Positions 33,701 to 49,471 of a stretch of DNA of 64,000 bases are shown in pieces. Location of the stretch: NCBI RefSeq assembly GCF_009469605.1, contig NZ_SSXU01000002.1, positions 114,807-178,806 of the forward strand. Direction: 5' to 3'. Source of the stretch: Zoogloea sp. 1C4 (GTDB lineage: Bacteria; Pseudomonadota; Gammaproteobacteria; Burkholderiales; Rhodocyclaceae). The notes beneath the pieces were generated by a model, which was not told the DNA's origin, did no database searches, and was given only the letters and a program-made list of their open reading frames with translations. How positions within the stretch are numbered: the first letter of the stretch is position 1; the number at the start of each line of letters is the position of its first letter. Both the position numbers and the translations under genes were made by a program.

Positions 33701-34417
33701 CCACGGCTTGGCCGGATTGAGGAAGCTGCTGGGAAGCTGCACGACGGGGCAACCGCAGAGGCGGGCTTCCATCGTGACGGAGGTGTTTTCGAAGCAATAC
33801 AGGTGCGTGCTGCGGCGCAGGAGTGCGGCGAGTTCTTCGTGGGTCGCCGGAAAATCCTTGGTGATGACCGTGCAGCGATCGGCCAGCTCGGCGTGTTCCC
33901 GCTGTCCTTCCCGGTAGCGCCCGAAATAGATGCAGGCACCACTTCGTTGGTCGTCGTCGGGATTGTCCCTGTTGTGGAAGAGCGAGGTGTCCACGGGGGG
34001 GAGATACAGCGTGCCAATCGCGTTGGGCACGTATTCCCGCAATTCGTCGGAGTGAATCCAGAAGAGGTCGGTGTTTGCGTAGGCGGGCTTTTCGCCGAGT
34101 ACGCCGGGGCGGTTGAGGATGTAGCGCACGACCACGTCGCAGTCGAGCGGGTTGGCGCCGACGATCTCGGGGTAGATGGCGATCGGACGCAAACCGGCTT
34201 CTTCGTGACGGGCGCGGACCGCGTCGGTTAGCAGGGGGGTGTTGAGCCTTGGATTGACGACCTGTGTGGTGAGGTAGGCTTCTTCGCCAAGCCGATTGAG
34301 CGTGTCGCAGATCTGGTGCATGACCCGAATGCCGGCCGACGTCCGCACGTAGTCTGGTGCGAACACGTAGTACGGATGGCGGCGCCTGGCGTAGAGGCTG
34401 GGGGGGCTTGCGGGCAT
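30776..34417 (-). CDS. Multidomain glycosyltransferase (GT4-like, two GT2 modules, GT4-like)
   Basis: The 1213-residue protein has at least four sugar-transfer modules. An N-terminal GT4-like domain (about 15-330) is followed by a first GT2-type domain (about 345-560, with IYTDEDTREP), a second GT2 domain (about 580-830, starting PLVSIVIQTRDREEYL with the metal-binding LFLDNDTHV) and a C-terminal GT4-like domain (about 880-1213, with GWAGAQQHLGDLELIYPVVE and LRLLEYGAMGWPVICTDIYP). Multi-GT proteins of this kind assemble short glycans on LPS, capsules or flagellin. It is the last gene of the sugar island, directly before fliC. The acceptor and donor sugars are unknown. Confidence 0.88.
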   Translation of the reverse strand: MPASPPSLYARRRHPYYVFAPDYVRTSAGIRVMHQICDTLNRLGEEAYLTTQVVNPRLNTPLLTDAVRARHEEAGLRPIAIYPEIVGANPLDCDVVVRYILNRPGVLGEKPAYANTDLFWIHSDELREYVPNAIGTLYLPPVDTSLFHNRDNPDDDQRSGACIYFGRYREGQREHAELADRCTVITKDFPATHEELAALLRRSTHLYCFENTSVTMEARLCGCPVVQLPSSFLNPAKPWGTHLGLDLGLTDGDAPETLAAARAALPELDRRYQELETRFWDDLADLVRETQRAATRCPPRKRPLPDKAEDELSKLYETWRARRTLQEIDAQLLAERMVLTWKTRPGIHLLMAVHPGEENLLADTLDSLAAQLYPEWLLTVATVLPTPEGLGDIPNLQWLALRDAAHIDYVLGEMAAASPGSWLARIEPGVTFEPHTLQVVADYINIRPDWRLIYTDEDTREPDGRYSQPCFKPDFNLDLLRAQAYFGSFVVVAKDAFLAAGRYGSHSGAENYDLALRVLDHAGEAAIGHIDQMLAHLPRASARTMNPAAEKAALADHLARHGLDAVIHDGASFGTRRVQYRWADAPLVSIVIQTRDREEYLRPLLDSIATRTDYPNYELVVVDNDSTDPDAVAYLRGLATEARWAGRCRVVACPGEFSHARGANAGAAAAHGDYLLFLDNDTHVVQDEWLVRMMDIAMRPEVGIVGPRLTYPETAKVQHTGWVLGLRGSAGSPWNNDLEITDPGYMARALCDQNVSAVCGSALLVRRSLFDQLGGIDAEGFPLSHGTLDLCLRAREAGSKIVWTPYSMLVHFDAISLKARQRKPDGMLADLLGAMAANDRLLERWLPKLAHDPAYNRNLSLADPFKPEHVAPIDWDTHFHDRPRILGVPLTGGAGEYRLRAPLRAIGQAGLAQTMICEPPKAFSVRILSPVELARAAPDAIIMHQPLDDPQTDALEAYKRFMPQVRRIITIDDLITALPKKNSFYKAGFKDARPRLRRTLGLADRLVVSTRPLADICADMIGDIRIMPNCLEGALWNDVAPPRLPRKKPRVGWAGAQQHLGDLELIYPVVEALADEVDWIFMGMCPEPLKPFVRESHGFVQDFRTYPQALARLDLDLAIAPLEIHAFNECKSNLRLLEYGAMGWPVICTDIYPYQNAPVTRLPNEPEKWISTIREQLADPAALQHAGRLLQAWVRDGYILENHATSWFAAYGP

Positions 34418-34471: not shown

Positions 34472-35266
34472 TTAGCGGGTTTCGAGGACGGAGATACCGC
34501 TCCACCAGTATTCGGCGGTCTGGCCGAGGTGAGCCCGCCGGTTGAAGGTGAGGTCGTGGCCGTAGGCCTCGAAGTGATAGCCGATGCCGGGCTTCTCGCC
34601 TGCGAGGCCGGTGAGCCACAGGAGCGGCGGGTAGCCGTCGGTGCGCAGCAGCAGGTCGGGCACGCCCACGAAGGCGGCGGCGGTGTCGAAGCCGCCGGCG
34701 AGCAGGAGGTGATCCGGCAGGCTGGCGATCTGCTCGACCGCTGCGGGCAGGGAGTATTCGGTGAGGCAGGGGAAGTACAGCCCGACCACCTCGTCGTCGC
34801 CCATCGCCTCGATCAGCCGCTCGTGGCGCGAGCCGGGCTGGACGGTGAGCTTGCCGGCAAGGCCGAGCTTGACGTGGTTGGTGAAGCGCTCGGCCGGGAA
34901 GGCTTCTTCAAAGCTGCGGGCGACGGCCGGCAGGTAGCCTTCTTCCATCAGCGTACCGATCTCGGTCACCGGCGTGCGCGGCACGATGAAGGGCACGGCG
35001 AGGCCGTTGAGCATCCCGGCAGTGGCGGGATCGGCCGCCAGGCGGGCGCGGATGGCGTCGATGCGGCGGGTGAAGCTGTTCACATCCAGGCCCTTGCCGG
35101 CGCCCAGATGGCGGCCCAGGCGGGCGAGGATGGCGGCGGGATCGACGGCCGGCGTGCCGAGGCGGAAATAGCGCCGCGACTGCCGATGCACCGGCGACTG
35201 GACGGCGGTGGGCAGGCAGCGGCCGAATTCGTCGAAGGCGGCGGGGGCGAGGGTGGCTGTGCTCAT
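34472..35266 (-). CDS. Unrecognised protein coupled to a radical SAM gene
   Basis: I do not recognise this 264-residue protein. It has no signal peptide or membrane helix and no Cys cluster. Visible landmarks are VPFIVPRTPVTEIGTLMEEG, AEAMGDDEVVGLYFPCLTEY-like central strands and a C-terminal GIGYHFEAYGHDLTFNRR segment rich in His and aromatics. Its ATG overlaps the stop of the radical SAM gene by 4 bases, so the two are made together and it may be a substrate-binding or processing partner. The giant glycosyltransferase gene follows after 54 bases. Confidence 0.8.
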   Translation of the reverse strand: MSTATLAPAAFDEFGRCLPTAVQSPVHRQSRRYFRLGTPAVDPAAILARLGRHLGAGKGLDVNSFTRRIDAIRARLAADPATAGMLNGLAVPFIVPRTPVTEIGTLMEEGYLPAVARSFEEAFPAERFTNHVKLGLAGKLTVQPGSRHERLIEAMGDDEVVGLYFPCLTEYSLPAAVEQIASLPDHLLLAGGFDTAAAFVGVPDLLLRTDGYPPLLWLTGLAGEKPGIGYHFEAYGHDLTFNRRAHLGQTAEYWWSGISVLETR

Positions 35267-36378
35267 TTTTCGTCCTGCAGCGAGTCGTTGTCCGAGAAGC
35301 CCTTGCCCCAGGGCAGGGGCAGGTGGGTGGCACCCTTGGTGCGTTCGGTGTGGATCTTGATGAACTGCGGGTCTTCGCCGATCAGGCAGTCGGGCCGGTG
35401 CGGTCCGAGCCAGGGGTTGCGCATGCCTCGATCGAGGATCTCCTTGAGGGAGTTCTGGCGCAGGTTGCCCAGGGAGAAGTCGATGTACGGGCAGGGGGTG
35501 ATCTCGGCGGTGGAGGTGACGGTGATGATGCCCTTCACCGTGATGCAGCCCTTGAACGAGCCGTAGGAGGGCGTCATGTGGGTGAACACCGGGTAGCTCT
35601 TTTCGAGCTCGCGCACCACGTCGGCGTCTTCCTTGTCGATGACGAATTCGGGGTGGTCGGTGCATGAGCCGGTGGGTTTGGCGTAGGACACGTACAGCCC
35701 GATGCCCTTCGACTTGGCGAACTCGCACATCTGGCGGAACTCGTCGCTCTTGCCGCGGCCGCGCACCAGCACGGTGGACAGGATCAGGTTGAGGCCGGCT
35801 TCCAGCGAGGCGTCGATGGCGCGCATCACCCGCTTGTAGGAGCCCGGCTTGTTGCGGAACTTGTCGTGCTCGGCCTCGATCATGCTGTCGAGGGACAGCT
35901 GGACCTTCTCGACGCCGATGGCCTTGAGGTGCCTGGCGCGTTCCAGGTCGAGGAACCAGCCGTTGGTGTCGGTGATGACGTAGTGGCGGTCCGGGTCGAT
36001 GGCTTCGACGACGGCGTCGAAATCCTTCATCACCAGCGGTTCGCCGCCGGTGATGACGAAGCGGGCGAGGCCCAGCTCGTCGGCTTCCTTCGAGAGGCGG
36101 CGGATGTCGTCCAGGTCGATCTTCTGGCGCTCGTCCTTGATCTTGAAAACCTTCTCCAGGTGCCGGTCCATGTAGTACTCGGCGGAGCAGTGGGTGCACT
36201 GGAAGTTGCACAGATAGCTTTTTTCCAGGCGGATGATCGGACTGATCTCGCCGCGTTCTTCCATCTCGGCGACGCGGGCGAGCTTGGCGGCGACGTGGGG
36301 CTTCCGGGACGCGAGATCGTTGCGCTTCGCAGCTTCGGAGGCGGTGAGGCCGGGGTCTGCAGTCAGGGTGGCGGTCAT
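35263..36378 (-). CDS. Radical SAM protein with SPASM-like C-terminus
   Basis: The enzyme has 371 residues from the ATG at 36378 (MTATLTADPG). The radical SAM cluster motif CNFQCTHC places Cys57, Cys61 and Cys64; FVITGGEPL is the SAM-binding GGE. C-terminal Cys residues in GCITVKG, TPCPY and PDCLI suggest one auxiliary Fe-S cluster of SPASM/Twitch type. Such enzymes modify peptides, proteins or sugars. It overlaps the unrecognised partner gene by 4 bases and is separated from the SDR gene by 246 bases, so it may begin a new transcript. That gap shows nothing I can name. Confidence 0.88.
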   Translation of the reverse strand: MTATLTADPGLTASEAAKRNDLASRKPHVAAKLARVAEMEERGEISPIIRLEKSYLCNFQCTHCSAEYYMDRHLEKVFKIKDERQKIDLDDIRRLSKEADELGLARFVITGGEPLVMKDFDAVVEAIDPDRHYVITDTNGWFLDLERARHLKAIGVEKVQLSLDSMIEAEHDKFRNKPGSYKRVMRAIDASLEAGLNLILSTVLVRGRGKSDEFRQMCEFAKSKGIGLYVSYAKPTGSCTDHPEFVIDKEDADVVRELEKSYPVFTHMTPSYGSFKGCITVKGIITVTSTAEITPCPYIDFSLGNLRQNSLKEILDRGMRNPWLGPHRPDCLIGEDPQFIKIHTERTKGATHLPLPWGKGFSDNDSLQDEK

Positions 36379-36624
36379 GGTTCGAATCTCGTTTTGGCGT
36401 CGGGAGCCGGACAGGACGCGCCGGGTGCCGACAGGCTGTTGGGGCTTGCGCGGTTTTTCGGGGGCTTTGCGGGGCTCGCCCGGAGCCGGGAAAAACGCGG
36501 TGGTGTCGGCACTTACGGCTTGTTGTCCGCTTTCTGAAGGGCACGATGCCATTTCAGGGTCTGGCTACGGATTGTGCGATTTGCCCGGCCTGGGGCATGG
36601 CCGGAATAGGGGGAGGACGGCGGC

Positions 36625-37677
36625 CTAATTCCGGCTTTCGGCGCAGCGGGCGGTGAGCCGGATGGCTTCGTCGAGGGGCGTCCACAGGTCCAGCCCCAGC
36701 TCGCTGCGGGCCCGGGCGACGCTGGGCAGGTAGATGTTGCGGGTGGGCAGGCCGGTGGCCTGGCCGAGGATGCGCACGGGCTTGCCCGGCGCAACGACGC
36801 GGCCGACGCGGTGGGCCAGATCGCCGATGGTGACGGCTTCGTCCGAGCCCACGTTGTAGGCACGGCCGTTGGCGCCCCGCACGAGCAGGGTGAGCAGCCA
36901 CACCACCAGATCGCCGGCGTACATATAGGAGCGCACCGGCGTGCCGTCGCCGCCGACGGTGATCGCCTCGCCCCCCAGGGCGTCGCGGATGAAGTTGCCG
37001 ATGGCGTAGTGCAGGTCGAGGGGCAGGTGCGGGCCGATGAAGGAGAAGCAGCGCGCGGTGCTGTACGACAGACCGTGGCGGTCAGCGTAGGCGGCGCAGA
37101 GGAATTCGGCGGCGCGTTTGGCTTGGCCGATGGCGACGTCCAGGTTGTCGGCCGCCGGGGCGACCGGGTAGTCCTCGGTGTAGGCGCCGTGGCCGGGCAG
37201 GAGCGGGCCGTAGAAGGCGCCAGAGCCCAGCATCAGCAGGCGCGGGATGCGCCGCTCGGCGGCGAGGTCCAGCACCCGGCGGGCGCCCTGGAGCGTGGTG
37301 TCGAACTTGGTGAGCGGGTCTTCCTGCCGGTGGAAGGTGGCGGCGGCCGAGGTGGCGGCGGCGTGGATCAGGTGGGTGAAGTCGCCGGCGGGAAAGGCGA
37401 AATCGCGCACGTCGCCCGGGTGAAAGCGGATCGCCGGGCTGGTGGCGACTTCGGGCGCGTCGGCGAGGAAGCGGGCCGGATCGCGGCTGAGGGCGGTGAC
37501 GCGCAGATCGAGGCCGAGGGTGTCGTTGGCGCGGGCGAGTGCCGGGAGCAGCCAGCGTCCGAAGTAGCCGGTGCCGCCGGTGATGAAGATGCGCGCGCCG
37601 CGCAGGGCATCCCAGCCGTTGCCGAAGCGGGCGACGGCGGTGTCGATCTCGGCGGCGAAAAGCGGCGCGGCGGTCAT
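36625..37677 (-). CDS. NAD-dependent epimerase/dehydratase-like SDR lacking the catalytic Tyr
   Basis: This extended SDR has 349 residues. The nucleotide motif GGTGYFG (34-40) and GSGAFYGP (Ser152 region) are intact. Where the catalytic YxxxK is expected the sequence reads IGQAKRAAE, so Ile183 replaces Tyr while Lys187 is kept. Family members reduce, epimerise or dehydrate NDP-sugars. In this cluster it could act as the last reductase on a CDP-keto sugar (compare abequose-type synthases and YerF), though the missing Tyr argues for altered chemistry. The ATG at 37677 lies 4 bases after the glycosyltransferase stop. Confidence 0.85.
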   Translation of the reverse strand: MTAAPLFAAEIDTAVARFGNGWDALRGARIFITGGTGYFGRWLLPALARANDTLGLDLRVTALSRDPARFLADAPEVATSPAIRFHPGDVRDFAFPAGDFTHLIHAAATSAAATFHRQEDPLTKFDTTLQGARRVLDLAAERRIPRLLMLGSGAFYGPLLPGHGAYTEDYPVAPAADNLDVAIGQAKRAAEFLCAAYADRHGLSYSTARCFSFIGPHLPLDLHYAIGNFIRDALGGEAITVGGDGTPVRSYMYAGDLVVWLLTLLVRGANGRAYNVGSDEAVTIGDLAHRVGRVVAPGKPVRILGQATGLPTRNIYLPSVARARSELGLDLWTPLDEAIRLTARCAESRN

Positions 37678-37681
37678 GGCG

Positions 37682-38758
37682 TCAGCTTGCCCGGCCGCCC
37701 ATGGGCGCGCGGCGTTTCTCCGGCATGGTGTCGGGCGGCAGGGTTTCCAATGTTGCTGCGAGGGCATCGAGCGTCGCCGTGGGCTCCATCTGGTAGTGAT
37801 CGCGCCACTTGGGTGAGTCGAAGATCATCACGCGCAGGGCGTCGTGTAGGGCCGTGAGGAATCCCTTGCGGAGCGGATTGATCTCCGGGCCTGTTTCGGT
37901 GCTGGCGAGCATGTCGATGGCGGTCTTCACCAGGCCGTTGTCGGTGAGAAGCCGGCCCACTTCGTTCACCTTGACCAGGTAGCGGGTCACATCGTCGAAG
38001 AGGTCGTGGTCGTCGTAGATGTAGTCGTATGTGCGAATGGCTTCCTGGATGAGGCGTCGTCGTTCGGCGGTCTGGGTGAACTGGCTTTTTTCGTGGATGC
38101 GGTAGTAGCCGAGAGGCGCATCGACCACGTAGGCGGGGCCGGTGGTGGCGAGGCGCGCCCACATGTAGTGATCGACGAAGCCACCGCGGAGGCTGACGGA
38201 GTCGTTGCCCCAGAAGCGGGAAATGTGGCGGTCGAAGCCACCTACCGCGTCGAAGTTGGCACGGCGGAACACGGCGAAGGACTGGATGATCCAGCTCGTG
38301 AAGCACAGGGGGCCCATGACCTGCTGCACGCCGGTCGGGAGGTTCGGCCGGTATTGGTGCGTGCCCTCGACCGCTACCCCGTTGATGAGGCGATAGAACA
38401 GGCTGTAGCCGAACGCGCATTCGGGATGCCTGGCAAGGCCGTTGGCAAGTACCTCGGTGAGGAAATCCGGATGCAGGACGTCATCCACGTGCATCTGGAG
38501 CACGTACTCGGCGGACGTCATTCGATACGCGATGTTGGCCGAGGCAATGTGGCCGACGTTCTGCTCATTGCGGTAGTAGCGGATGCGTGGGTCGCGATCG
38601 AGCCAGTCGGCCATGGCCTCGGCGGTGTCATCGGTGGAGGCGTTGTCGATCACCAGCACCTGGAAGTCGCGGTAGCTCTGGTTGCGGATCGAGCGCAGGC
38701 AGTCGTTGAGGTGATGGGCACCGTTGTAGGTGGTGACGATGATATCGAGGGGGGGCAT
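37682..38758 (-). CDS. Family 2 glycosyltransferase
   Basis: This 358-residue enzyme has a GT-A fold: N-terminal DIIVTTYNGAHHLNDCLRSI, VIDNASTDDTAE and a metal-binding LQMHVDDVLHPDF. There are no membrane helices. It should transfer a sugar from a nucleotide donor during glycan assembly. It lies between the SDR gene and the Nudix gene in the minus-strand island with short gaps (4 and 16 bases), so it is co-transcribed. Confidence 0.93.
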   Translation of the reverse strand: MPPLDIIVTTYNGAHHLNDCLRSIRNQSYRDFQVLVIDNASTDDTAEAMADWLDRDPRIRYYRNEQNVGHIASANIAYRMTSAEYVLQMHVDDVLHPDFLTEVLANGLARHPECAFGYSLFYRLINGVAVEGTHQYRPNLPTGVQQVMGPLCFTSWIIQSFAVFRRANFDAVGGFDRHISRFWGNDSVSLRGGFVDHYMWARLATTGPAYVVDAPLGYYRIHEKSQFTQTAERRRLIQEAIRTYDYIYDDHDLFDDVTRYLVKVNEVGRLLTDNGLVKTAIDMLASTETGPEINPLRKGFLTALHDALRVMIFDSPKWRDHYQMEPTATLDALAATLETLPPDTMPEKRRAPMGGRAS

Positions 38759-38774
38759 GGGGCCGCCTTCAGTG

Positions 38775-39296
38775 TCAGTCGAAATAGGGGCGGTAAATGT
38801 GCTGCTGCACGATCAGGTCGTTCGGGGCTCCGCTGTGCCAGGCCCAGTCGCCAACCCTGGGATTCGACGGATCGAAGCGGCGGGCATCATCTGGTGGTGC
38901 TGCAAGGGTGCAGTGGTACAGCAGCGAAATGAAGTGGCCGCGCACGTCGCGTTTCGGGTTGGTGATCTCGAAGATGCCCAGTGGTGTGCTGTCGAAGTTC
39001 ACCTTGGTGCCGAGTTCGCCCTGGGCCACGGCGGCAATGCGGTTGGCAGCAGATTCCTTGAAACGGATGATGCCGCCCGGTACGTGCCAGCCTGGGCCAT
39101 AGAAGGCGTCGTGTCGCCAGGTGAGCAGCGTGCGGTCGGTGTCGTCGCGGATCAGCAGGTCGACGTTGATCATCGGCATGAGGCTGCTGGCGAAGAGGAA
39201 GATCTCTTCCGGAAGTCCGCCGCGGGCGGAAGGGCCGACGGCGGAACGCAGGGTGGCAATGGCCTCGTGGATGGCGTCTGGAGTTGGTGTGGTCAT
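38775..39296 (-). CDS. Gmm-like Nudix hydrolase
   Basis: The protein has 173 residues. The Nudix region is GGIIRFKESAANRI followed by AAVAQGELG. The usual REuxEE core is altered in the same way as in GDP-mannose mannosyl hydrolases, which end this motif with ELG and cleave the sugar rather than the pyrophosphate. A role in trimming or policing an NDP-sugar pool is inferred; with CDP-sugar genes around it the substrate may not be GDP-mannose. Its ATG overlaps the methyltransferase stop by 4 bases. Confidence 0.85.
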   Translation of the reverse strand: MTTPTPDAIHEAIATLRSAVGPSARGGLPEEIFLFASSLMPMINVDLLIRDDTDRTLLTWRHDAFYGPGWHVPGGIIRFKESAANRIAAVAQGELGTKVNFDSTPLGIFEITNPKRDVRGHFISLLYHCTLAAPPDDARRFDPSNPRVGDWAWHSGAPNDLIVQQHIYRPYFD

Positions 39297-40438
39297 GGGG
39301 CGATCACGGTTTCGAGGCGGTTGCCCTTCAGCACGGCCACGGTGAAGCGGTTGCCGTGGCGCTCGCGAAGGATGCGCGCGACTTCGTCGGAGTAGCTGGC
39401 GGCGAGCACGATCACCGCGTCCACCTCGCCATCGGCCAGACGCTCAGGCGCGACGATGGGCAGGTGGGTGGCGGGGGTGAAGCGGCCCTGCTTGAAGGGG
39501 GCGGAATCGACCACGTAGCGGATGCGCGGAGCGAGCTCCATCAGGCTGACGAGGGCCAGGGCCTGGTGGCCGGCGCCCCAGATCGCCACCCGGCCGGCGG
39601 CAAACGGGGCGAGGAAGGCGTCGAAGCTCGCCTTGAGCCCGGCCTGGCAGGCGGCAAGCGGCGTCAGATCGAGCGGGCGGCGCTTCTTCACGGTGGCCGA
39701 GAGCACGTAGTCGTGCCATTCGGGGCTGCAGTCGAGCACCTCGAAGCCGTTGGATTCCAGCAGCGTGGTGAGGGTCTGGCGGGTGAAGTAGAACAGGTGA
39801 TCCGGGATGAACTCGGCGAACAGACCGGCCGTGAGGATCATGTCGAAGTTGGGCACCTCGACGAGCCCGGTGGCGCCATCGGCCAGGTTGGCGGCGATGC
39901 CGCGCAGGGTGAGGTGGGCCGTGGGGATGTGTTCGAGGAAGTTGAGGATCGCGAAGCCGTCGAAGGGGGCGCTTGCAAGGCGGGTGTCGGGACCGTCGAT
40001 GAAGCCTTCGACCACCGGCAGCCCGGCGGCGTGGCAGGCCGCCACCGAGGCGGGCAGGTGTTCGATGCCGGAGGCGTCGGCGCCGGCTTCCCGCAGCAGA
40101 CTCAGGTATTCGCCGCGGCCGCAGCCGACTTCGAGCACCTTGCGGCCCTGGAGGCCGTGTTCAGCCAGCCAGCGGCCGAACTGCTCGAGCCGGTAGGCGC
40201 GCATCTCGGCGGAGATGCCGGCGGCGCGGATCACGTCACGCCAGTAGGCCACTGGCTCGGCGACGAGCTGGACGGTGCCGCAGCCGCTGCACTGGTGGAG
40301 CGCCAGCGTGACGCCCAGGTCGGTGTCGAGCTGATCTGCGGTGGGCAGGCCCTGGGCGGCCGCCGGCATGTCGCGCTGGACGAGCAGCGCTTCAGGAAAC
40401 AGCGGCTGTGCGCAGAGCCGGCAGGCCGTGGCGGGCAT
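39293..40438 (-). CDS. NDP-hexose C-methyltransferase family protein
   Basis: The enzyme has 381 residues in three parts. An N-terminal zinc-site domain carries Cys6, Cys9, Cys50 and Cys53. A SAM-binding Rossmann core has VLEVGCGRGEYLSLL (about 99-113). A C-terminal domain has VAIWGAGHQALALVSLME and VVDSAPFKQGRFTPATHLPI, as in the C-terminal part of sugar C-methyltransferases of the TylC3/NovU type. These add a methyl branch to a keto-sugar carbon. It belongs to the overlapping minus-strand run with the B12 radical SAM gene upstream and the Nudix gene downstream. Confidence 0.88.
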   Translation of the reverse strand: MPATACRLCAQPLFPEALLVQRDMPAAAQGLPTADQLDTDLGVTLALHQCSGCGTVQLVAEPVAYWRDVIRAAGISAEMRAYRLEQFGRWLAEHGLQGRKVLEVGCGRGEYLSLLREAGADASGIEHLPASVAACHAAGLPVVEGFIDGPDTRLASAPFDGFAILNFLEHIPTAHLTLRGIAANLADGATGLVEVPNFDMILTAGLFAEFIPDHLFYFTRQTLTTLLESNGFEVLDCSPEWHDYVLSATVKKRRPLDLTPLAACQAGLKASFDAFLAPFAAGRVAIWGAGHQALALVSLMELAPRIRYVVDSAPFKQGRFTPATHLPIVAPERLADGEVDAVIVLAASYSDEVARILRERHGNRFTVAVLKGNRLETVIAP

Positions 40439-40452
40439 CGTGGGGCTTCCGC

Positions 40453-42123
40453 TCAGGCGGCCAGGGCGACGGCCGGCTCGACGACCAGCCCGAAGTGGTC
40501 TCGGTAGCGTTGCCAGAAGGTGCTGGCGGCAAAGAACTCGACGGCCCTGGCGTGGTACTGGGCGGCGCGGTCGTGATCGCCGAGCTGCGTGAAGCAGCGG
40601 GCCGCGTAGTAGTACGCGAAGGCGTGGTCGCTCTTGGCGCGGATCGCGTTGAGGAGTCCCTTGAGTGCGCTGCTGTAGTCGCCCAGGCGCATGTCCGCGT
40701 TATGGACGAAGTTCAGTTCCAGGTTGAGGAGATAGATCTGTTCCTGGATGTACTCGGCGCTGAAGTCCTCGGTCTCGACGACGGCGCTCTTATAGTCCTG
40801 GCCGATGTAGCCTTCCGTCAGGTAGCCCTTGGATTCGCAGATTTCGTGCATCTCGCTGCCCACGAGCGGCGCGGCGGCGAAGATGATGAACCAGTTGGCG
40901 TCGACGGTGCGCAGGAACTGGCGGGTGTCCTCGATGTCCTGCTTGGTCTCGCCGGGCAGGCCGATGAGGATGTTGGCGTTGGTGTAGATGCCGAGCTCCC
41001 GGCAGTCCGCGGCGACGCGCTTGGCGATCGACACCTTGAGCGGCTTCTTCATGATGTCCTTGAGCACCCGCGCACTGCCGGATTCGATGGACAGCATCAG
41101 GTGGTACACGCCGGCCCGGTGCATGGCCTCGAGCATCGGCCGTTCGAGTGCGTAAAGGGCGAGGCCGTTCTGGAACACGGCGGTCATGCCCATCTCGCCG
41201 ATCATGTCGACGATGGCCCGCGCGCGTTCCTTGTCGCCCATGAAGTGGTCGTCCTGGACGACAAGGGTGCGGGCGCCGTACTGGTCGCGCAGGCGCTCGA
41301 AGTCGGCGCGGACGCGCTCGAGGCTGTAGTAGCGCATCTTGCGGCCATGCACCTGGTGGGATGCGCAGAAGGTGCACTTGAACGGGCAGCCACGGGAGGT
41401 CATCACGTGGAAGTTGTTGGTCTTGTCTTCGATGGCGGCGTAGGCGGTGAGCGCCGGGTTGAGCCCGTAGCGCTCGAACTCGCATAGCTCGTAATCGTAG
41501 AAAGGCAGTTCGTCGAGGTTGTCGATGAAGTCGTGGGCAAACTGTTCGCCGCGCAGGATCTTGTCGATGGTGATCCACGACGGGCTGGCGGCGATGTAGG
41601 CACGGCGGTCGGTGGCGCGGACGAGATCGAGCAGCGGCTTCTCGCCTTCGCCGTAGCACAGGGCGTCGAAGTCTGGGCACTGCCGGAAGATCTGCCGGTA
41701 CATGCTCGACGGCACGCTGCCGCCGGCGATCACCAGCGCGTCCGGGAAGCAGGCCCGCGCACTGCGTCCGAGGGCGAGCAGGTTGTGGTACGAGGGGGTG
41801 AACAACGACGAGATGCCGACGATGTCGGGCTGGAAGTCGGCGTAGCGTTCGGCGAGGGTGGCGCTGAAGTACTCGTCGAAGCTTGCCGCGTCGAAGCGGT
41901 CGAGGGCGTTGAGCTCGATGTTGAAGTCGATGAGCTGGATCGTCAGCGCCTCGGTGTTTTCCTTGAGGTAGGCGCTCATCGACATGATGCCGAGGGGCAT
42001 GTCGGTGGCGAGGTTGCCGTACATCCGTCCGTCCGCCTTTGGGACGTGGCGCGTGTTGTCGGCAGGATTCACGTACTTGTCGAAGGGCAGATTGGGCGGA
42101 ACGATGAACAGGATCCGGGTCAT
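40453..42123 (-). CDS. B12-binding-domain radical SAM protein
   Basis: The product has 556 residues. An N-terminal cobalamin-binding-like Rossmann domain (1-170, with DIVGISSLFTPSYHNL and ALVIAGGSVPSSMY) precedes the radical SAM core, whose motif CPFKCTFC gives Cys246, Cys250 and Cys253. A C-terminal helical part (about 480-540) resembles TPR units. Related enzymes methylate unactivated carbons or rearrange substrates, and BchE is a cyclase. In a sugar cluster it could act on a carbohydrate or a protein. It is co-transcribed between the ThDP enzyme gene and the C-methyltransferase gene. Confidence 0.88.
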   Translation of the reverse strand: MTRILFIVPPNLPFDKYVNPADNTRHVPKADGRMYGNLATDMPLGIMSMSAYLKENTEALTIQLIDFNIELNALDRFDAASFDEYFSATLAERYADFQPDIVGISSLFTPSYHNLLALGRSARACFPDALVIAGGSVPSSMYRQIFRQCPDFDALCYGEGEKPLLDLVRATDRRAYIAASPSWITIDKILRGEQFAHDFIDNLDELPFYDYELCEFERYGLNPALTAYAAIEDKTNNFHVMTSRGCPFKCTFCASHQVHGRKMRYYSLERVRADFERLRDQYGARTLVVQDDHFMGDKERARAIVDMIGEMGMTAVFQNGLALYALERPMLEAMHRAGVYHLMLSIESGSARVLKDIMKKPLKVSIAKRVAADCRELGIYTNANILIGLPGETKQDIEDTRQFLRTVDANWFIIFAAAPLVGSEMHEICESKGYLTEGYIGQDYKSAVVETEDFSAEYIQEQIYLLNLELNFVHNADMRLGDYSSALKGLLNAIRAKSDHAFAYYYAARCFTQLGDHDRAAQYHARAVEFFAASTFWQRYRDHFGLVVEPAVALAA

Positions 42124-42176
42124 GGCGTCACCTCGCTGGGGTTGGGTCGATCGTTGTCGTTGTTGTCGTTACGGGG

Positions 42177-44015
42177 TCAGGCCTCCGCGGCCGCGGGCGG
42201 TCGCGGAGCCTCGAGTGAAGCAGGCAGTAGCGGCACGATCATCTCGGCCTTGAGGGTTTCGAGGGGCAGCAGGGGGCTCATGTCTTCCAGCGGCATCGAG
42301 ACGATGGAGCCATCGGCGCGGGGGATGGCGGCGCACTTGGGTTGCAGGGTTTCGTCGGGCACCAGCTGCACGTCGATCAGGCAGGGGCGTGGCAGCTGCT
42401 GGGCGCGGGCCAGGGCATCGGCGAGGCTGGCGCAGTCGTCGATGCGCATGAAGGGCAGGCCATACACGGCGGCGAGCTTTTCGAGATCCGGCATCGTGAG
42501 GCCCGAGGCCGGGCCGCTGCCCACGTAACGCCCGTTGAAGTAGTTGCGCTGGGTGTTGCGGATGGAGGCGTAGCCGCCGTTGTTCATGATGAACAGGCAG
42601 ATCGGGAGCTGGAGCCCGGCGAGGGTGGCGAGCTCCTGCAGGTTGAGCTGCAGGCTGCCGTCGGATTCCACGGCCAGCATGGGCTGGCGGTCGTTGCCGA
42701 GGCAGGCGCCGATGGCCGCCGGCAGCCCGTAGCCCATCGCGCCGAGGCCGGAGGTGAGGAAGCTGCGCTGGCCCGGCTTGTTGCGGAAGCCCGCGTAGAA
42801 GAACTCCACCGCCAGGCCGGAGCTGCCGGTGGCGATGAGGGTGTGCTCGGGTGCGGCGTCCGACAGCGCCTCGACGAAATGGGCGTGGCCGATGGGGCCG
42901 GACGGCGGGAAGACGCGGCCTTCGTTCTGGGTGTAGCGGGCCTTCCAGCTCGTGCAGCGGGCGCGCCAGTTGGCGGTGTCGCCGGGCGTGGCGGCGGCCT
43001 GCAGGGCGCGGATGAAGTCGCCAGCGTCCATCGCCAGGGGCTGGTCGATGGCCATCGCGGCCTTGTCGGCGAGCTCATGGGCGTCCACGTCCACCACCAC
43101 CTTGCGCGCGGCTCGGGCGAAGCCCTTGGGGTTGTAGGTGGTGACGATCATGTCGAGGCGGGCGCCGATGGCAATCAGCAGGTCGCAGTTCTGCACCGCG
43201 AAGTTGGCGGCGCGGGCGGCGACCACGCCGGGGCGGCCGATGTTGAGGGGGTGGTCGTAGGGCAACAGGTCCAGCGCGTTCCAGGTGAGCACGGCGGGCA
43301 CCTGCAGGCGGTCGACGAGCTGGCGGAAGGCATCCGCGGCACCGGCGAGGCGCACGCCGTGGCCGGCGAGGATCAGCGGGCGCTTCGCTTCGGCGAGCAT
43401 CGCCAGCACGGGAGCGAGGTCGGGCGTCGGGGCGGTGGCCTCGGCCGGCGGCGTCCAGCCGGGCAGGGTGTCCGGGTCGATGGGGGCGGCCTGCACGTCG
43501 AGGGGCACGTCGATCCACACCGGGCCGGGGCGGCCGGATTTCATCAGGTGCAGGGCTTGCTCGAGATGGACGCGCACCATCTGCGGGTCGTCCAGCGTGA
43601 CGGCGTATTTGGTGATCGGGCGGACGATGGGGACGATGTCCACTTCCTGAACGCCGCCCTGGCGGATCGGGCGGCCGGCAAGGCGGTCGGGGCGCTTGGC
43701 CTGGCCGGAGAGCACCAGCATGGGCACCGAGTCGATCCACGCGCCGGCCACTGGGGTGATGGCGTTGGTGGCGCCGGGGCCGGTGGTGACCATCGTCACG
43801 CCGAAGCCCGGGTTGCCGGCGTTGCCGGTGCGGCCGGCGGCCTCGGCGGCGATGGCGGCGGCCTGCTCGTGGTGGCAGGGCACGGCGGCCAGGCGCGGTT
43901 CGCAGGCCACGGCGTCGTTGAGGTACATGGCGCCGCCGCCGGGCAGCATGAAGATGTGGCGGATGCCCTCGTCGGCCAGGCGACGCAGCATCCAGTCGGC
44001 AACGCGGATCGTCAT
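42177..44015 (-). CDS. ThDP-dependent acetolactate-synthase-like enzyme
   Basis: This is a 612-residue enzyme of the acetohydroxyacid synthase/pyruvate oxidase superfamily. The catalytic Glu50 sits in CHHEQAAAIAAEAAGR, TTGPGATNAITPVAGAW follows, and the ThDP-Mg motif appears as SDGSLQLNLQELAT to NNGGY. It is not beside ilvN or ilvC. Its position downstream of rfbF-rfbG-rfbH recalls YerE, which adds an acetyl branch from pyruvate to CDP-3,6-dideoxy-4-keto-glucose in yersiniose A synthesis. That role is inferred. It begins 5 bases after the NeuB-cupin stop. Confidence 0.87.
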   Translation of the reverse strand: MTIRVADWMLRRLADEGIRHIFMLPGGGAMYLNDAVACEPRLAAVPCHHEQAAAIAAEAAGRTGNAGNPGFGVTMVTTGPGATNAITPVAGAWIDSVPMLVLSGQAKRPDRLAGRPIRQGGVQEVDIVPIVRPITKYAVTLDDPQMVRVHLEQALHLMKSGRPGPVWIDVPLDVQAAPIDPDTLPGWTPPAEATAPTPDLAPVLAMLAEAKRPLILAGHGVRLAGAADAFRQLVDRLQVPAVLTWNALDLLPYDHPLNIGRPGVVAARAANFAVQNCDLLIAIGARLDMIVTTYNPKGFARAARKVVVDVDAHELADKAAMAIDQPLAMDAGDFIRALQAAATPGDTANWRARCTSWKARYTQNEGRVFPPSGPIGHAHFVEALSDAAPEHTLIATGSSGLAVEFFYAGFRNKPGQRSFLTSGLGAMGYGLPAAIGACLGNDRQPMLAVESDGSLQLNLQELATLAGLQLPICLFIMNNGGYASIRNTQRNYFNGRYVGSGPASGLTMPDLEKLAAVYGLPFMRIDDCASLADALARAQQLPRPCLIDVQLVPDETLQPKCAAIPRADGSIVSMPLEDMSPLLPLETLKAEMIVPLLPASLEAPRPPAAAEA

Positions 44016-44020
44016 CGGGC

Positions 44021-45514
44021 TTACATCCAGTAGGTGAGCCAGGTCTTGCGGCTGGGGTTGGCCGCGATCGCCGGGTCGGTGTAGTAGGAGTCGTGCTTGT
44101 CGTGGGTGGAGGAGATCTCCTCGAACACCACGCCCTCGGTGGTCTTGAAGGTGTGCTTCACGCCGCGGGCGACGGTGATGACGTCGCCGGCGCTGGCCTC
44201 GCGCTCCTCGCCGTCGAGCCACAGGGTGAGACGGCCGTGGAGGACGACGAAGGTCTCTTCCTTCTTCTGGTGGTATTGCTCCGGGTGGGTCTGGCCGGGG
44301 AGCATCACCAGCAGCTTCTTGCAGTATTCGCGATTGACGACGGTGACCATCGTCAGGCCGAACTCGTTGAAGCGCTCCAGCCCGTAGTGGTGGGAGATCT
44401 CCAGATCGGACTTGCCGGGCACGACCACGTTGCCGGCCTTGAGCAGCGCCTTCACGGCGGTGACGATCTCCAGCACCTGGCCGCGCAACTGGGTCTCGGC
44501 AACCTGGGCGTGGCGCACCGGCTGGCCGGCGGGGATGGCTTCCGTGGTGATGAAGCGGGCGTACTTGGACCACTCGTTGGCGGTGACCTGGCCTTCGACC
44601 GGCGGGAAGGCGAACTCGATCATGTCGGCGGCGATCACGCTGCCCGCGGGGATGTCGCGGGTGGCGAACACGCCCCGGCGCAGGGAATGCAGGCTGGCCC
44701 GCTCGCCGGCGGAGGGCTGGTAGCGCTCATGGCTGCCGCAGATGGCACGGGCGCGGCGGCAGGCGCCCAGCCAGGCGCGGATCTGATCCGGGTTGGCGGA
44801 GTAGGCGTTGGCGGCGTATTTGTCGGTGGGCAGCACCACGTGCTTCTCGAACACGCTGGCGCCCTTGGCCAGTGCGAGGCCCACGGCGAAGGTGTTGTCC
44901 GGTGATTCGTGGGTGGAGTAGCCCACGCGCACGCCGGGGTAGCGGGCGCGCAGCAGCTCGATCTGATTGACCTGCAGGGCTTCGTCGGGCGTCGGGTATT
45001 CGGCGACGCAGTGCATCAGGGTGAGATCCTTGCCCCGGTGCAGGAAGAAGCTCGTCACGTTGTCGATTTCATCCAGCGTGGCGCCGGCGGTGGAGGCGAT
45101 CACCGGCTTGTCGGCGGCGGCGATGCGCTCCAGCAGCGGCCAGTCGGTGAAGGAGCAGCTGGCGATCTTGATGGTGTGGATGCCGTGGGCTTCAATGCGG
45201 CCGACCGAGTTCTCGTCGAAGGGCGTGCACACGGTGATGAAGCCCTGGGCGTCCATCTCGGCCACCAGGGCGCGGAAGGCTTCGTCGGAGAGCCGGGTTT
45301 CCTCGAAGCGCTTGACGTACTTGATGTCGTCGCGGCCGCGGGCGGAGGCGTGGATGAAGGTGTCCAGATCGCGGTACTGGAGCTTGAAGGCGAAGTCGAA
45401 GTCGTCTTCAAAGCCGCGGCAGGCCTCGCGGATCGCGCGGATGGTGGCGATGCCGTGGGGCAGGTCGCCCATGTGGTTGTTGGCCATTTCATAGACCATC
45501 AGGGGCTTGGTCAT
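44021..45514 (-). CDS. NeuB-family sialic acid synthase-like enzyme fused to a cupin
   Basis: The protein has 497 residues. The N-terminal TIM barrel of the NeuB family (1-270) has [30 protein letters not shown] and GYSTHE. A SAF domain follows (about 278-340, [16 protein letters not shown]), and then a C-terminal cupin (about 380-470) with the metal-type motif [19 protein letters not shown] and GVKHTF. NeuB enzymes condense phosphoenolpyruvate with an aldose. No NeuC- or CMP-sugar-synthetase gene is in the window, so the product is not ordinary sialic acid, or its partners are elsewhere. The ATG overlaps the rfbH stop (ATGA). Confidence 0.88.
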
Positions 45515-46884
45515 AGGTCGACTCCGAGGAAGGTGCGGATGTGGCTGGCGGTGTAGTCGAGCTGGGCGCTGGTGAGCCCCGGCCACACGCCGATCCAGAA
45601 GGTGTCCCGCATGATGCGGTCGGCCACCGGCAGATCGCCGACGACGCGGAAGTTGCGCCCGGCCATCGAGGGCTGGCGGACGAGGTTGCCGGCAAACAGC
45701 AGGCGGGTGCCGATCTTGTGCTGGTCGAGGTATTGCAGGAGGTCCACGCGATTGACGCCGGCCTCGGGGCGCAGGGTGATGGGGTAGCCGAACCACGACG
45801 GATCGCTGCCGGGCGTGGCTTCGGGCAGCACGAGGAGATCCCGCGCGTCGGCCAGCGCCTCGGTGAGCCACGCGAAGTTGCGCTTGCGGGCGGCGATGAA
45901 GCCGTCGAGCCGATCCAGCTGGGCCAGCCCGCAGGCGGCCTGCATGTCGGTGATCTTGAGGTTGTAGCCGATGTGGCTGTAGGTGTACTTGTGGTCGTAG
46001 CCCTGCGGCAGGCTGCCCAGCTGCCAGCCGAAGCGCTTGCCGCAGGTGTTGTCGCAGCCGGGCTTGCACCAGCAGTCGCGCCCCCAGTCGCGGAAGGATT
46101 CGGCGATCTGGCGCAGGCTCGGATCGCTGGTGAGCACCGCGCCGCCTTCGCCCATGGTGATGTGGTGGGCGGGGTAGAACGACAGCGTGGCCAGATGACC
46201 GAAGGTGCCGACCTTGCGGCCCATCCAGGTGGAGCCGAGGGCGTCGCAGCAGTCTTCCACCAGCCACAGGCCGTGGGCTTCGCAGAAGGCGCAGACGGCG
46301 GTGAGGTCGAAGGGGTTGCCGAGGGTGTGGGCGATCATCACCGCCTTGGTGCGCGGCGAGAGCGCGGCTTCGAGCATGGCCACGTCGATGTTGTAGCCGG
46401 GCAGGGTGGCATCGACGAACACCGGCACCGCGCCGTTCTGGATGATCGGATTGACGGTGGTGGGAAAGCCGGCAGCAACGGTGATGACCTCGTCGCCCGG
46501 GCGGATGGCACGCTCGCCGAGCTTGGGTGAGGTGAGGGTGGAGAAGGCCACCAGGTTGGCCGACGAGCCGGAATTGACGGTGAGGGCGTAGGTGGTGCCG
46601 ACGAACTCGGCGAGGCGCGCCTCGAAGGCGTCGTTGAAGCGGCCAGTGGTGAGCCAGGCGTCGAGGGCCGCGTCGATCATCGCGTCCTTCTCGGGATCGC
46701 CGACGACCTTGCCGGAGGGCGGCACCGGGTCAATGCCCGGGCGCCAGCCGCGGGGCGCGGCGGCGGCGCGGGCGGGGCGGACGATGACTTCGAGATCCTG
46801 CCCGGCGAGCTCGGGGTGGGCGGAGAGATCCAGCTGCAGGCTGCCGTCGGCGCCGGGGGTGAGGGTCTGGCGGATGATGCTCAT
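45511..46884 (-). CDS. rfbH: CDP-4-dehydro-6-deoxyglucose 3-dehydrase (E1)
   Basis: The enzyme (457 residues) removes the C3 hydroxyl of CDP-4-keto-6-deoxyglucose through a PMP and [2Fe-2S] mechanism. The diagnostic features are present: His instead of the usual PLP-binding Lys in [13 protein letters not shown] (240-241), and the cluster Cys residues in [14 protein letters not shown] (Cys271, 273, 277, 281). An extra N-terminal stretch of about 45 residues is unlike other RfbH proteins I know. The reductase partner (ascD/ddhD) is not in the window. It overlaps rfbG and the NeuB-cupin gene by 4 bases each. Confidence 0.95.
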
Positions 46885-47948
46885 GAGTTGCTTCCGAAGG
46901 CGGCGATTTCGTCGAGGGTGTAGCGGTGCATGTCGGCACCGTTCTGCCAGGCTTGATACCAGGCGAGGCTGCGCGCCACGGCTTCGTCGGCCCGCCAGCG
47001 GGGGCGCCAGCCCAGGCGGACGCGGGCCTTGGTGCAGTCGAGCTTGAGGGTGTGGGCCTCATGCACCTGGGGCGTGGCGGCGCTGGCCCAGTGGGCGGCG
47101 GGGCCCCAGCCTTCGGCGAGCTGCTGTACGACCCACGCGACGCTGCGGGCGTCGGTTTCGTCGGGGCCGAAGTTCCAGCCCTCGGCAAAGGCGGCGCTTT
47201 CATCCACGAGGCGCTCGGCGAGCTGGAGATAGCCGGAGAGGGGTTCGAGCACGTGCTGCCAGGGGCGGATCGCGCCGGGGCTGCGCAGGGTGACGGGCTC
47301 GCCGGCGGTGAAGGCGGCGAGCACGTCGGGCGCCAGGCGGCTGGGCGTCCAGTCGCCGCCGCCGATCACGTTGCCGGCGCGGGCGCTGGCGAGCGGAATG
47401 CCCGCCGCGGCGAGGAACGAACGCCGGTAGCTGGCGACGATCAGCTCGGTGCAGCCCTTGCTGGCCGAGTAAGGGTCGTGGCCGCCCATCGGGTCGGTCT
47501 CGCGGTAGCCCCACAGCTGCTCGCGGTTTTCGTAGCACTTGTCGCTGCTGACCACCACGACCGCCCGGATGCCCGCCACGTGGCGGCAGGCTTCGAGCAG
47601 ATGGACGGTGCCCATGGCGTTGGTGGCGAAGGTGTCCACCGGGGTTTCGTAGGACAGCGGCACCAGCGGCTGGGCGGCCAGGTGGAAGACGACCTCGGGT
47701 CGGGCGGCCTGCATGGCGGCGAGGAGCGCCGGGTAGTCGCGCACGTCGCCGATGGTGGAGTGCATGTCGCGGCCGACGGCGGCCACGTCGAAAAGGGCCG
47801 GGTCGGTGGCCGGGGCGAGGGCGAAGCCGTGGACTTCGGCGCCCAGCTCCTGAAGCCACAGGCAGAGCCAGCCACCCTTGAAGCCGGTGTGGCCGGTGAG
47901 GAAGACCCGCCGGCCGCGCCAGAAGGCGGGGGTCACCAGGTTTTCCAT
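46881..47948 (-). CDS. rfbG: CDP-glucose 4,6-dehydratase
   Basis: This 355-residue extended SDR converts CDP-glucose to CDP-4-keto-6-deoxyglucose. It has [14 protein letters not shown] as the nucleotide motif, the [13 protein letters not shown] segment typical of Rfb[12 protein letters not shown], and an intact [11 protein letters not shown] catalytic region (YxxxK). It overlaps rfbF by 16 bases and rfbH by 4, so the three genes form one translationally coupled unit. Confidence 0.96.
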
Positions 47949-48709
47949 GGCGCCTCGCCGCTCTGCCAGAGTTCTTCGAGGAGGGTCTTGTCGCGCAGGG
48001 TGTCCATCGGGCGCCAGAAGCCGGTGTGCTGGAAGGCGGCGAGCTGCTTTCTGGCGATGAGCTGGGCGAGCACCGGGCCTTCAAAGATGGTCTGGTCGCC
48101 TTCGTTGATGTAGTCGAGCACCTTGGGCGACAGCACGAAGAAGCCGCCGTTGATGAAGCCGCCATCGCCCAGGGGCTTCTCGACAAAGGCGCTGACGCAG
48201 CCACCGCTTGCGATCTTGAGGGCGCCGAAGCGGCCCGGGGGCTGCACAGCGGCTACCGTGGCAAGCTTGCCGTGGGCCTTGTGAAAGCCAATCTCGGCGC
48301 TGATGTCGATGTCGGCCACGCCGTCGCCGTAGGTGAAGCAGAAGGCGTCTTCGTCCTGCACGTACTGGCGCACCCGGGCGAGGCGGCCGCCGGTCTGGGT
48401 GCTGTCGCCGGTATCCACCAGGGTGACGCGCCACGGTTCGGCGTGGCGCTCGTGGATTTCCATGCGGTTGTTGGTCATGTCGAAGGTGACGTCCGACATG
48501 TGCAGGAAGTAGTTGGCGAAGTACTCCTTGATCACGTAGCCCATGTAGCCGCAGCAGATCACGAAGTCGTGAATGCCGTGGGCCGAGTAGATCTTCATGA
48601 TGTGCCAGAGAATGGGCCGACCGCCGATGCCGATCATCGGCTTCGGGCGGTTGACGGTCTCTTCGCTGATGCGGGTGCCGAGGCCACCCGCGAGAATCAC
48701 GGCTTTCAT
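47933..48709 (-). CDS. rfbF: Glucose-1-phosphate cytidylyltransferase
   Basis: This 258-residue nucleotidyltransferase makes CDP-glucose from CTP and glucose-1-phosphate. The N-terminal [22 protein letters not shown] motif region (landmark [13 protein letters not shown]) and [14 protein letters not shown] are diagnostic for RfbF. It is the first gene of the CDP-sugar run, with GGAG five bases before the ATG. Confidence 0.96.
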
Positions 48710-49393: not shown

Positions 49394-49471
49394 CGTGAGC
49401 TGCACGGGAATCTGCAAATATTTGCAAAGCATGCAAGTCTAGCGAATCTCCGCCGGTAATGCTATTCGAAT

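Follow-up and report, generated by a model that had tools for sequence, protein, structure and literature searches.

Introduction

Gastriose of Mycobacterium gastri carries a 1,3-dimethoxy-4,5,6,7-tetrahydroxyheptyl branch, a chain of seven carbons that is deoxy at carbon 2 and corresponds to a pentose plus phosphoenolpyruvate (PEP) minus CO2. The route by which RfbF, RfbG and RfbH lead to cytidine diphosphate (CDP)-3,6-dideoxy-4-ketohexose, a precursor of branched sugars considered here, is established chemistry. Caryophyllose has a 1,3,4,5-tetrahydroxyhexyl branch that is deoxy at carbon 2 (PMC5706390), as is expected if this carbon is the CH2 derived from pyruvate. YerE-like thiamine diphosphate (ThDP) enzymes with long donors have already been published: ErwE works best with hydroxylated donors of more than four carbons, MMAR_2332 behaves likewise, coupling by ErwE has been shown with a sugar-mimicking ketone, and MygE takes C3–C8 keto-acids with benzaldehyde (PMC12247030). 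JanthE takes 4-hydroxy-2-oxovalerate with benzaldehyde as the acceptor (PMC12188165). For the assembly of monosaccharides of at least 12 carbons the coupling enzyme is known; the source of the long donor is not, in the literature covered. Here we analyze a run of sugar genes in a 64,000-nucleotide stretch of the 5.0 Mb genome of Zoogloea sp. 1C4 (contig NZ_SSXU01000002.1, positions 114,807 to 178,806; hereafter the window), in which a fusion of a NeuB-type synthase with a cupin is encoded next to a ThDP enzyme. Gene content and comparison across genomes make it likely that the run encodes a pathway to a long-branched sugar of the gastriose or caryophyllose type, within a flagellar glycosylation island.

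Five consecutive genes in the window encode RfbF, RfbG, RfbH, the NeuB fusion and the ThDP enzyme. As here, all five lie together in M. gastri (locus L043, within ~8 kb), where the NeuB fusion is 58% and the ThDP enzyme 55% identical to those of the window; we infer that the ThDP gene at that locus is MygE.

Pairing of the NeuB fusion with the ThDP gene

A scan of a genome collection gave 112 matches to the NeuB fusion, of which the best 80 were kept; the per-locus counts below refer to those 80. Their hosts include Betaproteobacteria, mycobacteria, Magnetococcales, a cyanobacterium, Lachnospiraceae and archaeal metagenome-assembled genomes (MAGs), and among them the named relative closest to the window genome is a MAG of Zoogloea (NeuB fusion, 98%). 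A reading of the window made from its letters only (the sequence-only reading) had proposed looking for the same gene arrangement in other genomes, and the ThDP gene and NeuB fusion do occur together in 73 of the 80 loci, less than 1 kb apart in 70 of those 73. Five of the seven loci that lack the ThDP gene (L052, L075, L077, L086 and L087) are short contigs or lie near a contig end. ThDP genes were also surveyed in 369 sampled genomes of the class (E 1e-95; 7 positive, the window genome included) and in 198 genomes of the genus of M. gastri (E 1e-80 with the M. gastri query; 10 positive). Of the 60 NeuB-fusion loci whose flanks exceed 4 kb on both sides, 58 have the ThDP gene, compared with 7/369 genomes of the class; the pairing is not due to chance. 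A search of plasmids at E 1e-80 gave no match to the ThDP enzyme.

Phosphatase-like genes recur around the pair. A small protein is encoded in 17 loci, in 13 of them between NeuB and ThDP; its structural model has a pLDDT of 95.7, and its best Foldseek matches are 5'(3')-deoxyribonucleotidases, which are haloacid dehalogenase (HAD) phosphatases. A HAD phosphatase also follows the ThDP gene in five mycobacterial loci. These genes would fit a route that starts from sugar phosphates.

In two loci (L019 from 7167 and L023 from 10533) the first set is followed downstream by another ThDP gene (39%), another NeuB (28%) and an aminotransferase-like gene, an arrangement that suggests two branched sugars may be made by one cluster.

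Exchange of the gene beside the ThDP gene

A pyruvate-adding enzyme is encoded adjacent to the ThDP gene, or within ~2 kb of it, in 16 of the 17 ThDP-positive genomes. The neighbor takes four forms: (i) the NeuB fusion in six genomes (G000, G160, G381, G382, G383 and G517), (ii) NeuB alone in four (G068, G308, G451 and G509), (iii) an HpcH/HpaI aldolase in four (G078, G437, G501 and G565) and (iv) a 4-hydroxy-2-oxovalerate aldolase with an acetaldehyde dehydrogenase in two (G175 and G282). To assign these kinds, one or two members of each were matched to Pfam or NCBIfam models and the remainder by tblastn; the G175 aldolase scores 388 bits with TIGR03217 (cut-off 286), and that of G282 is 89% identical. 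The surveys are threshold-dependent, with three of the four HpcH cases and two of the four NeuB-alone cases coming from one genus; the NeuB match in G451 is in two pieces near its end, and the ThDP match in G437 ends at residue 495. NeuB and these aldolases all join a pyruvate unit to an aldehyde to give a 4-hydroxy-2-oxo acid, and the simplest reading of these gene orders is that each of the exchanged neighbors supplies the donor of the ThDP enzyme.

In the ThDP tree, NeuB and HpcH alternate twice: mycobacterial L129 and L131 are nested among L130, L132 and L134, and G308 and G078, which differ in this respect, belong to one genus. Compared with 500 label shuffles, the fusion label stood out as a single group (no shuffle as low), and the NeuB-alone and HpcH labels, with four rows each, showed no clustering beyond that of the shuffles (71 and 66 of 500 as low), which fits exchange but also the small number of rows. 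The ThDP enzymes encoded beside a 4-hydroxy-2-oxovalerate aldolase cluster with JanthE (100/100).

Other genes accompany some of these pairs. An HpcH/HpaI aldolase, a small short-chain dehydrogenase/reductase (SDR) and a 3-dehydroquinate-synthase-like protein recur beside ThDP in L130 (6108–8842), L132, L134 and L100, and in L101 a dehydroquinate-synthase-like gene lies between ThDP and NeuB.

The ThDP enzyme

The ThDP protein comprises 612 residues (start at 44015). It scores below the cut-off in each of the 25 NCBIfam families shown out of 54 matched; the best model is acetolactate synthase, with 345 bits against a cut-off of 538. Among solved structures it is closest to 8rph (407.6 bits), with lower scores for 5ahk (258.9), which we take to be PpYerE, and Escherichia coli acetohydroxyacid synthase (AHAS) I (238.2). 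The entry 8rph is JanthE, a YerE-like enzyme (PMC12188165). In a tree of 46 rows, to which the own-genome ThDP matches L004–L007 contributed no row, the ThDP protein groups with JanthE, separated from E. coli AHAS I and from two AHAS-like proteins that its own genome encodes (100/99); a tree of 35 rows separates it from AHAS in the same way (99/96). The YerE-like class is not one clade in these trees, and 5ahk, whose branch is very long, falls on the side of AHAS. The sequence-only reading had called the protein a ThDP enzyme of the YerE kind and had named clustering with true AHAS beforehand as the outcome that would refute it; the nearest structure and both trees bear the assignment out. From its relatives, we infer that the enzyme couples a decarboxylated keto-acid to a ketone.

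At window positions 42657–42665 (ThDP residues 451–453) the cofactor-region motif reads SDG, not GDG. Among 74 relatives the position of this Ser is Gly in 53% and Ser in 46%, and JanthE has CDG at the same motif (PMC12188165).

The NeuB fusion and its isomerase domain

The NeuB domain scores 144 bits with PF03102, and its closest solved counterpart is 3g8r. Compared with meningococcal NeuB, the positions E25, T110, K129, S132, S154, Y186, S213, H215, E234 and H236 are kept and Glu134, Asn184, Asp247 and Arg314 are replaced; K53 aligns with Asp40, probably misaligned for Lys44. Nine of the kept positions, all but Y186, are taken to be catalytic, at the PEP and metal sites. Arg314, which lies in the SAF domain of sialic-type NeuB and presumably serves the N-acetyl sugar, corresponds to Pro304 in the window and is Pro in 81 of 81 sequences.

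The C-terminal 150 residues were modeled with a pLDDT of 93.8. In a Foldseek search of the PDB, every one of the ten best matches is a D-lyxose isomerase or the E. coli sugar isomerase belonging to the same family (3kmh, 3mpb), the next being L-ribose isomerases and other cupins, and a phmmer match to 2y0o (E 8e-13) is consistent with D-lyxose isomerase. The metal ligands of such cupins are, we assume, three His and one Glu; His415, Glu420 and His454 are invariant in all 81 sequences. Judged from its predicted structure, the "cupin" is a D-lyxose-isomerase-type domain, and the whole protein resembles a fusion of an isomerase with a PEP aldol synthase that uses a different acceptor.

The CDP-sugar precursor

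The sequence-only reading had RfbF, RfbG and RfbH make a CDP-3,6-dideoxy-4-ketohexose precursor, and this stands: all three proteins score above curated cut-offs (Table 1) and the RfbH motifs are present. His240 occurs in 53 of 53 sequences and His241 in 52 of 53, at what we take to be the site of the pyridoxal phosphate (PLP)-binding lysine of relatives. The cysteines Cys213-X57-Cys271-X-Cys273-X7-Cys281 follow the pattern C-X57-C-X-C-X7-C, presumably the E1 cluster motif. RfbF is encoded in 49 of the 80 loci, RfbH in 52 and one or both in 59.

RfbH-like proteins that score below the RfbH cut-off are encoded in L100 (12326–13534) and L102 (15253–16524). They keep His at the PLP-lysine place, and the C-X-C motif is absent. 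Perhaps they provide an iron-sulphur-free, ColD-like route to the same CDP-3,6-dideoxy-4-keto sugar.

Proposed pathway and alternatives

In the pathway that we propose, RfbF, RfbG and RfbH, together with an electron-transfer reductase encoded elsewhere, would supply CDP-3,6-dideoxy-4-ketohexose. The D-lyxose-isomerase-type domain would convert a ketose to the free aldose, and the NeuB domain would condense this aldose with PEP to give a 2-keto-3-deoxy sugar acid. The ThDP enzyme would then decarboxylate the acid and transfer the acyl chain to the C4 ketone, which would create a tertiary alcohol bearing a CO-CH2-CHOH... branch. Oxidoreductase, methyltransferase, radical S-adenosylmethionine (SAM) and Nudix genes would tailor the product, and glycosyltransferases would attach it, most likely to flagellin. 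A pentose as the aldose, suggested by the M. gastri sugar, would give a C13 sugar.

We lean toward a fuller form of this model, in which the isomerase-PEP synthase fusion would build a 3-deoxy-ulosonic acid (C8, and like 3-deoxy-D-manno-octulosonic acid, Kdo, if the aldose is a pentose), the ThDP enzyme would ligate the decarboxylated chain to C4 of the CDP-sugar, flagellin would carry a monosaccharide of 13 or more carbons, and an exchangeable donor cassette would set the branch length in bacteria and archaea. The sequence-only reading had instead raised separate additions as possible, with C2 from pyruvate added by the ThDP enzyme and C3 by NeuB, beside a C1 addition. That scheme is opposed by the gene context shared across phyla, by the exchange of NeuB for two kinds of pyruvate aldolase, by the finding that the cupin is of isomerase type and by the fact that no CMP-sialate-type synthetase was found in this genome; together these point to one convergent step, with NeuB building the keto-acid for the ThDP enzyme; separate C2, C1 and C3 additions are probably the wrong reading.

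An improbable alternative is that the run makes two sugars, the ThDP enzyme adding a pyruvate-derived, yersiniose-like two-carbon branch to one and the NeuB fusion independently making a nonulosonic-type acid. The YerE of Yersinia does use pyruvate as its donor (PMC12247030). Moreover, in G227 a NeuB fusion without a ThDP gene is directly followed by genes for a HAD phosphatase and a CTP_transf_3 protein, a sign that the family can feed CMP-activated sugars; at locus L106 (10851–13714) these two genes overlap, and the product is possibly a CMP-activated ulosonic acid. Such an arrangement is expected if the fusion makes an ulosonic acid that is activated there and consumed by ThDP in other loci. 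A CTP_transf_3 match also lies ~17 kb from the NeuB fusion in G398, and among 30 related genomes searched, drawn from the 80 loci, 16 have between two and six such matches, which are unclassified, 13 have one and one has none. In the present genome the single CTP_transf_3 (PF02348) match is KdsB, and no CMP-sialate-type synthetase (NeuA or PseF) was found among its CTP_transf_3 genes. This, together with the interchange of NeuB and pyruvate aldolases beside related ThDP enzymes and the pairing of ThDP with the NeuB fusion across phyla, argues against two sugars, and we regard a separate nonulosonic acid as the less likely product.

A still smaller chance attaches to the possibility that the donor route is correct and the acceptor is another keto-sugar, not (or not only) CDP-3,6-dideoxy-4-ketohexose. 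Neither RfbF nor RfbH is encoded in the flank of 21 of the 80 loci, several Lachnospiraceae among them, and the acceptor may differ there. Against this, at least one of the two is present in the other 59, and in the window RfbF, RfbG, RfbH, NeuB and ThDP are consecutive.

We consider it very unlikely that the Nudix protein frees the dideoxy sugar from CDP and that NeuB extends this same sugar at C1 to a branched nonulosonic acid. In nonulosonate pathways a hydrolase does precede NeuB, and there is a weak similarity between the Nudix protein and GDP-mannose mannosyl hydrolase. The Nudix gene is present in 33 of the 80 loci and absent from the mycobacterial ones, no CMP synthetase besides KdsB was found, and the aldolase exchange would go unexplained. 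Finally, that the ThDP protein is an ordinary AHAS in a chance mix of genes has almost no probability left: AHAS models are its best NCBIfam matches, below cut-off, but the trees, the nearest structure and the conserved cluster rule this candidate out to the extent that sequence allows.

Further observations weigh against the proposed pathway or parts of it. (i) L053 and L070 have the NeuB fusion without a ThDP gene despite wide flanks, and the link is weaker in the unselected sample of 369 genomes, where two of four fusion-positive genomes have one, G279 and G227 being without. (ii) The ThDP gene of G429 has no recognized donor-making neighbor, one gene separates ThDP and donor genes in G308 and two do so in G078, and four of the 17 genomes (G000, G381, G382 and G383) are the center of the study or were reached via NeuB-fusion loci, so that without them the count is 12/13. 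(iii) Cupin position 413, the first metal ligand, is Gln in 69% of sequences, that of the window included, and His in 31%. (iv) A DdhD/AscD reductase was sought in this genome and no dedicated one was identified; of ten NAD_binding_1 matches four were scanned, one being BenC and three having no assignment. (v) None of the methyltransferase, Nudix and SPASM genes is present in the mycobacterial loci, and the core pathway leaves these genes unexplained. (vi) According to PMC12247030, MygE gave no activity on ketones as assayed, MMAR_2332 is still to be tested with a ketone, and for two other putative members acceptance of ketones had yet to be shown.

Gene run, putative tailoring genes and flagellin

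Ten minus-strand genes run from 48709 down to 36625 with intergenic spacings of -16 to +53 bases (Table 1). The sequence-only reading had described one overlapping run of ten sugar genes over this range; all ten lie where it placed them, on the minus strand, and scans with hidden Markov models agree. Its end at 36625 does not hold, as two more genes belong to the run by conservation: a radical SAM/SPASM gene begins 72 bases downstream and is followed by a conserved gene, for which a Pfam and NCBIfam scan of one relative gave no match. A promoter and terminator scan was uninformative (promoter-like sites, 3 where 0.7 are expected, with a single one on the minus strand; terminator-like sites, 6 where 7.1 are expected).

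Table 1 Features of the sugar gene run and its surroundings (window coordinates).
Feature	Position	Strand	Basis
RfbF/DdhA, glucose-1-phosphate cytidylyltransferase	47933..48709	-	TIGR02623 454 bits, cut-off 300
RfbG/DdhB, CDP-glucose 4,6-dehydratase	46881..47948	-	TIGR02622 478 bits, cut-off 278
RfbH/DdhC (E1), CDP-4-keto-6-deoxyglucose 3-dehydrase	45511..46884	-	NF011936 724 bits, cut-off 423
NeuB-SAF-isomerase fusion, proposed donor-making keto-acid synthase	44021..45514	-	PF03102, PF08666, PF07883
C-terminal cupin domain of the fusion, D-lyxose-isomerase type	44021..44473	-	AlphaFold pLDDT 93.8, Foldseek, invariant His415/Glu420/His454
YerE-like ThDP carboligase	42177..44015	-	8rph match 407.6 bits, trees
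B12-binding radical SAM enzyme with C-terminal TPR-like stretch, putative tailoring	40453..42123	-	PF02310, PF04055
Sugar C-methyltransferase, putative tailoring	39293..40438	-	PF13489, PF08484
Nudix protein, GDP-mannose mannosyl hydrolase-like	38775..39296	-	PF00293 21.8 bits, cut-off 21.1
Family 2 glycosyltransferase (GT2)	37682..38758	-	PF00535
Extended SDR (alternative start 37767)	36625..37677	-	PF01370
Radical SAM/SPASM enzyme, run member beyond 36625	35263..36552	-	PF04055, PF13186
Conserved protein, approximate ends	34481..35266	-	tblastn to family in 14 related loci
Large protein with GT2 domain, candidate transferase, start uncertain	30776..34417	-	PF00535; family in 7/80 loci
Flagellin, proposed acceptor protein	29663..30487	-	PF00669, PF00700

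The C-methyltransferase family is encoded in 40 of the 80 loci, the SPASM family in 31 and the B12 radical SAM family in 9. At E 1e-60 the SPASM gene occurs in 1 of the 369 class genomes, the window's own. These three families and the Nudix family probably belong to the product. The methyltransferase, Nudix, SPASM and conserved proteins are also conceivable suppliers of the NeuB substrate, although the first three are absent from mycobacterial loci. The Nudix protein itself scores 21.7 bits with NF011963, whose cut-off is 146.

Flagellin was sought in 20 related genomes, picked by hand and mostly Proteobacteria. In 14 of the 20 it shares a contig with the NeuB fusion, at a distance of 9–31 kb; in three it is on other contigs only, and in three there is none at E 1e-20. 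Of the two Flagellin_N matches in the window genome, the flagellin listed in Table 1 scores better (1.1e-44 against 1.3e-15). The most likely destination of the glycan, judged from this linkage, is flagellin.

Upstream of rfbF, window positions 48809–50128 encode an uncharacterized protein and a HAD phosphatase (49472–50128), the latter a possible further requirement of the pathway but with phosphoglycolate phosphatase as its best model, below cut-off. Relatives of the phosphatase lie upstream of rfbF in L015, L017, L021, L022 and L023, and relatives of its neighbor in L015 and L017.

Comparison with known systems

If the proposal is correct, the branch could be read from the neighbor of the ThDP gene, and glycan structures would become predictable from genomes. 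It would also provide a matched pair of donor-making enzyme and ligase for tertiary alcohols, useful in biocatalysis, and would point to a role for 3g8r, a NeuB-type protein of solved structure, and to such sugars on the flagella of several bacterial groups. Titles and abstracts yielded no report of NeuB paired with a ThDP enzyme or a lyxose isomerase, but key papers on longer-branched sugars are outside this coverage, so earlier publication is possible; the word "NeuB" is absent from the main text of PMC12247030.

Sialic, pseudaminic and legionaminic acid pathways share with the present system the NeuB-type condensation with PEP. Unlike them, this system has no dedicated CMP synthetase found in the genome, a replaced Arg314 and a fused isomerase domain, and the acid is predicted to be spent as a carbon donor. 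Yersiniose A, made with YerE, involves the same CDP acceptor and ThDP coupling as proposed here (PMC12247030); its donor is pyruvate, its branch has two carbons, and a donor-making enzyme is unnecessary.

Caryophyllose (MMAR_2332) and erwiniose (ErwE) come closer, as both rely on YerE-like ThDP enzymes whose donors are long, hydroxylated keto-acids, like those in our proposal, and the comparison with caryophyllose drawn in the sequence-only reading is supported. In other relatives an HpcH/HpaI aldolase (G078, G437, G501 and G565) or a 4-hydroxy-2-oxovalerate aldolase (G175 and G282) occupies the place of the NeuB fusion, and these relatives would make sugars like caryophyllose or erwiniose.

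M. gastri offers the nearest parallel. Its system makes a sugar of a mycobacterial lipooligosaccharide, whereas the present genes lie in a flagellar island, and its locus has no relatives of the C-methyltransferase, Nudix and SPASM genes, in place of which it encodes a HAD phosphatase and a methyltransferase of the FkbM type. Since the five core genes are shared with M. gastri and gastriose has a branch of seven carbons, we predict by analogy, with moderate confidence, a seven-carbon branch for the Zoogloea sugar too.

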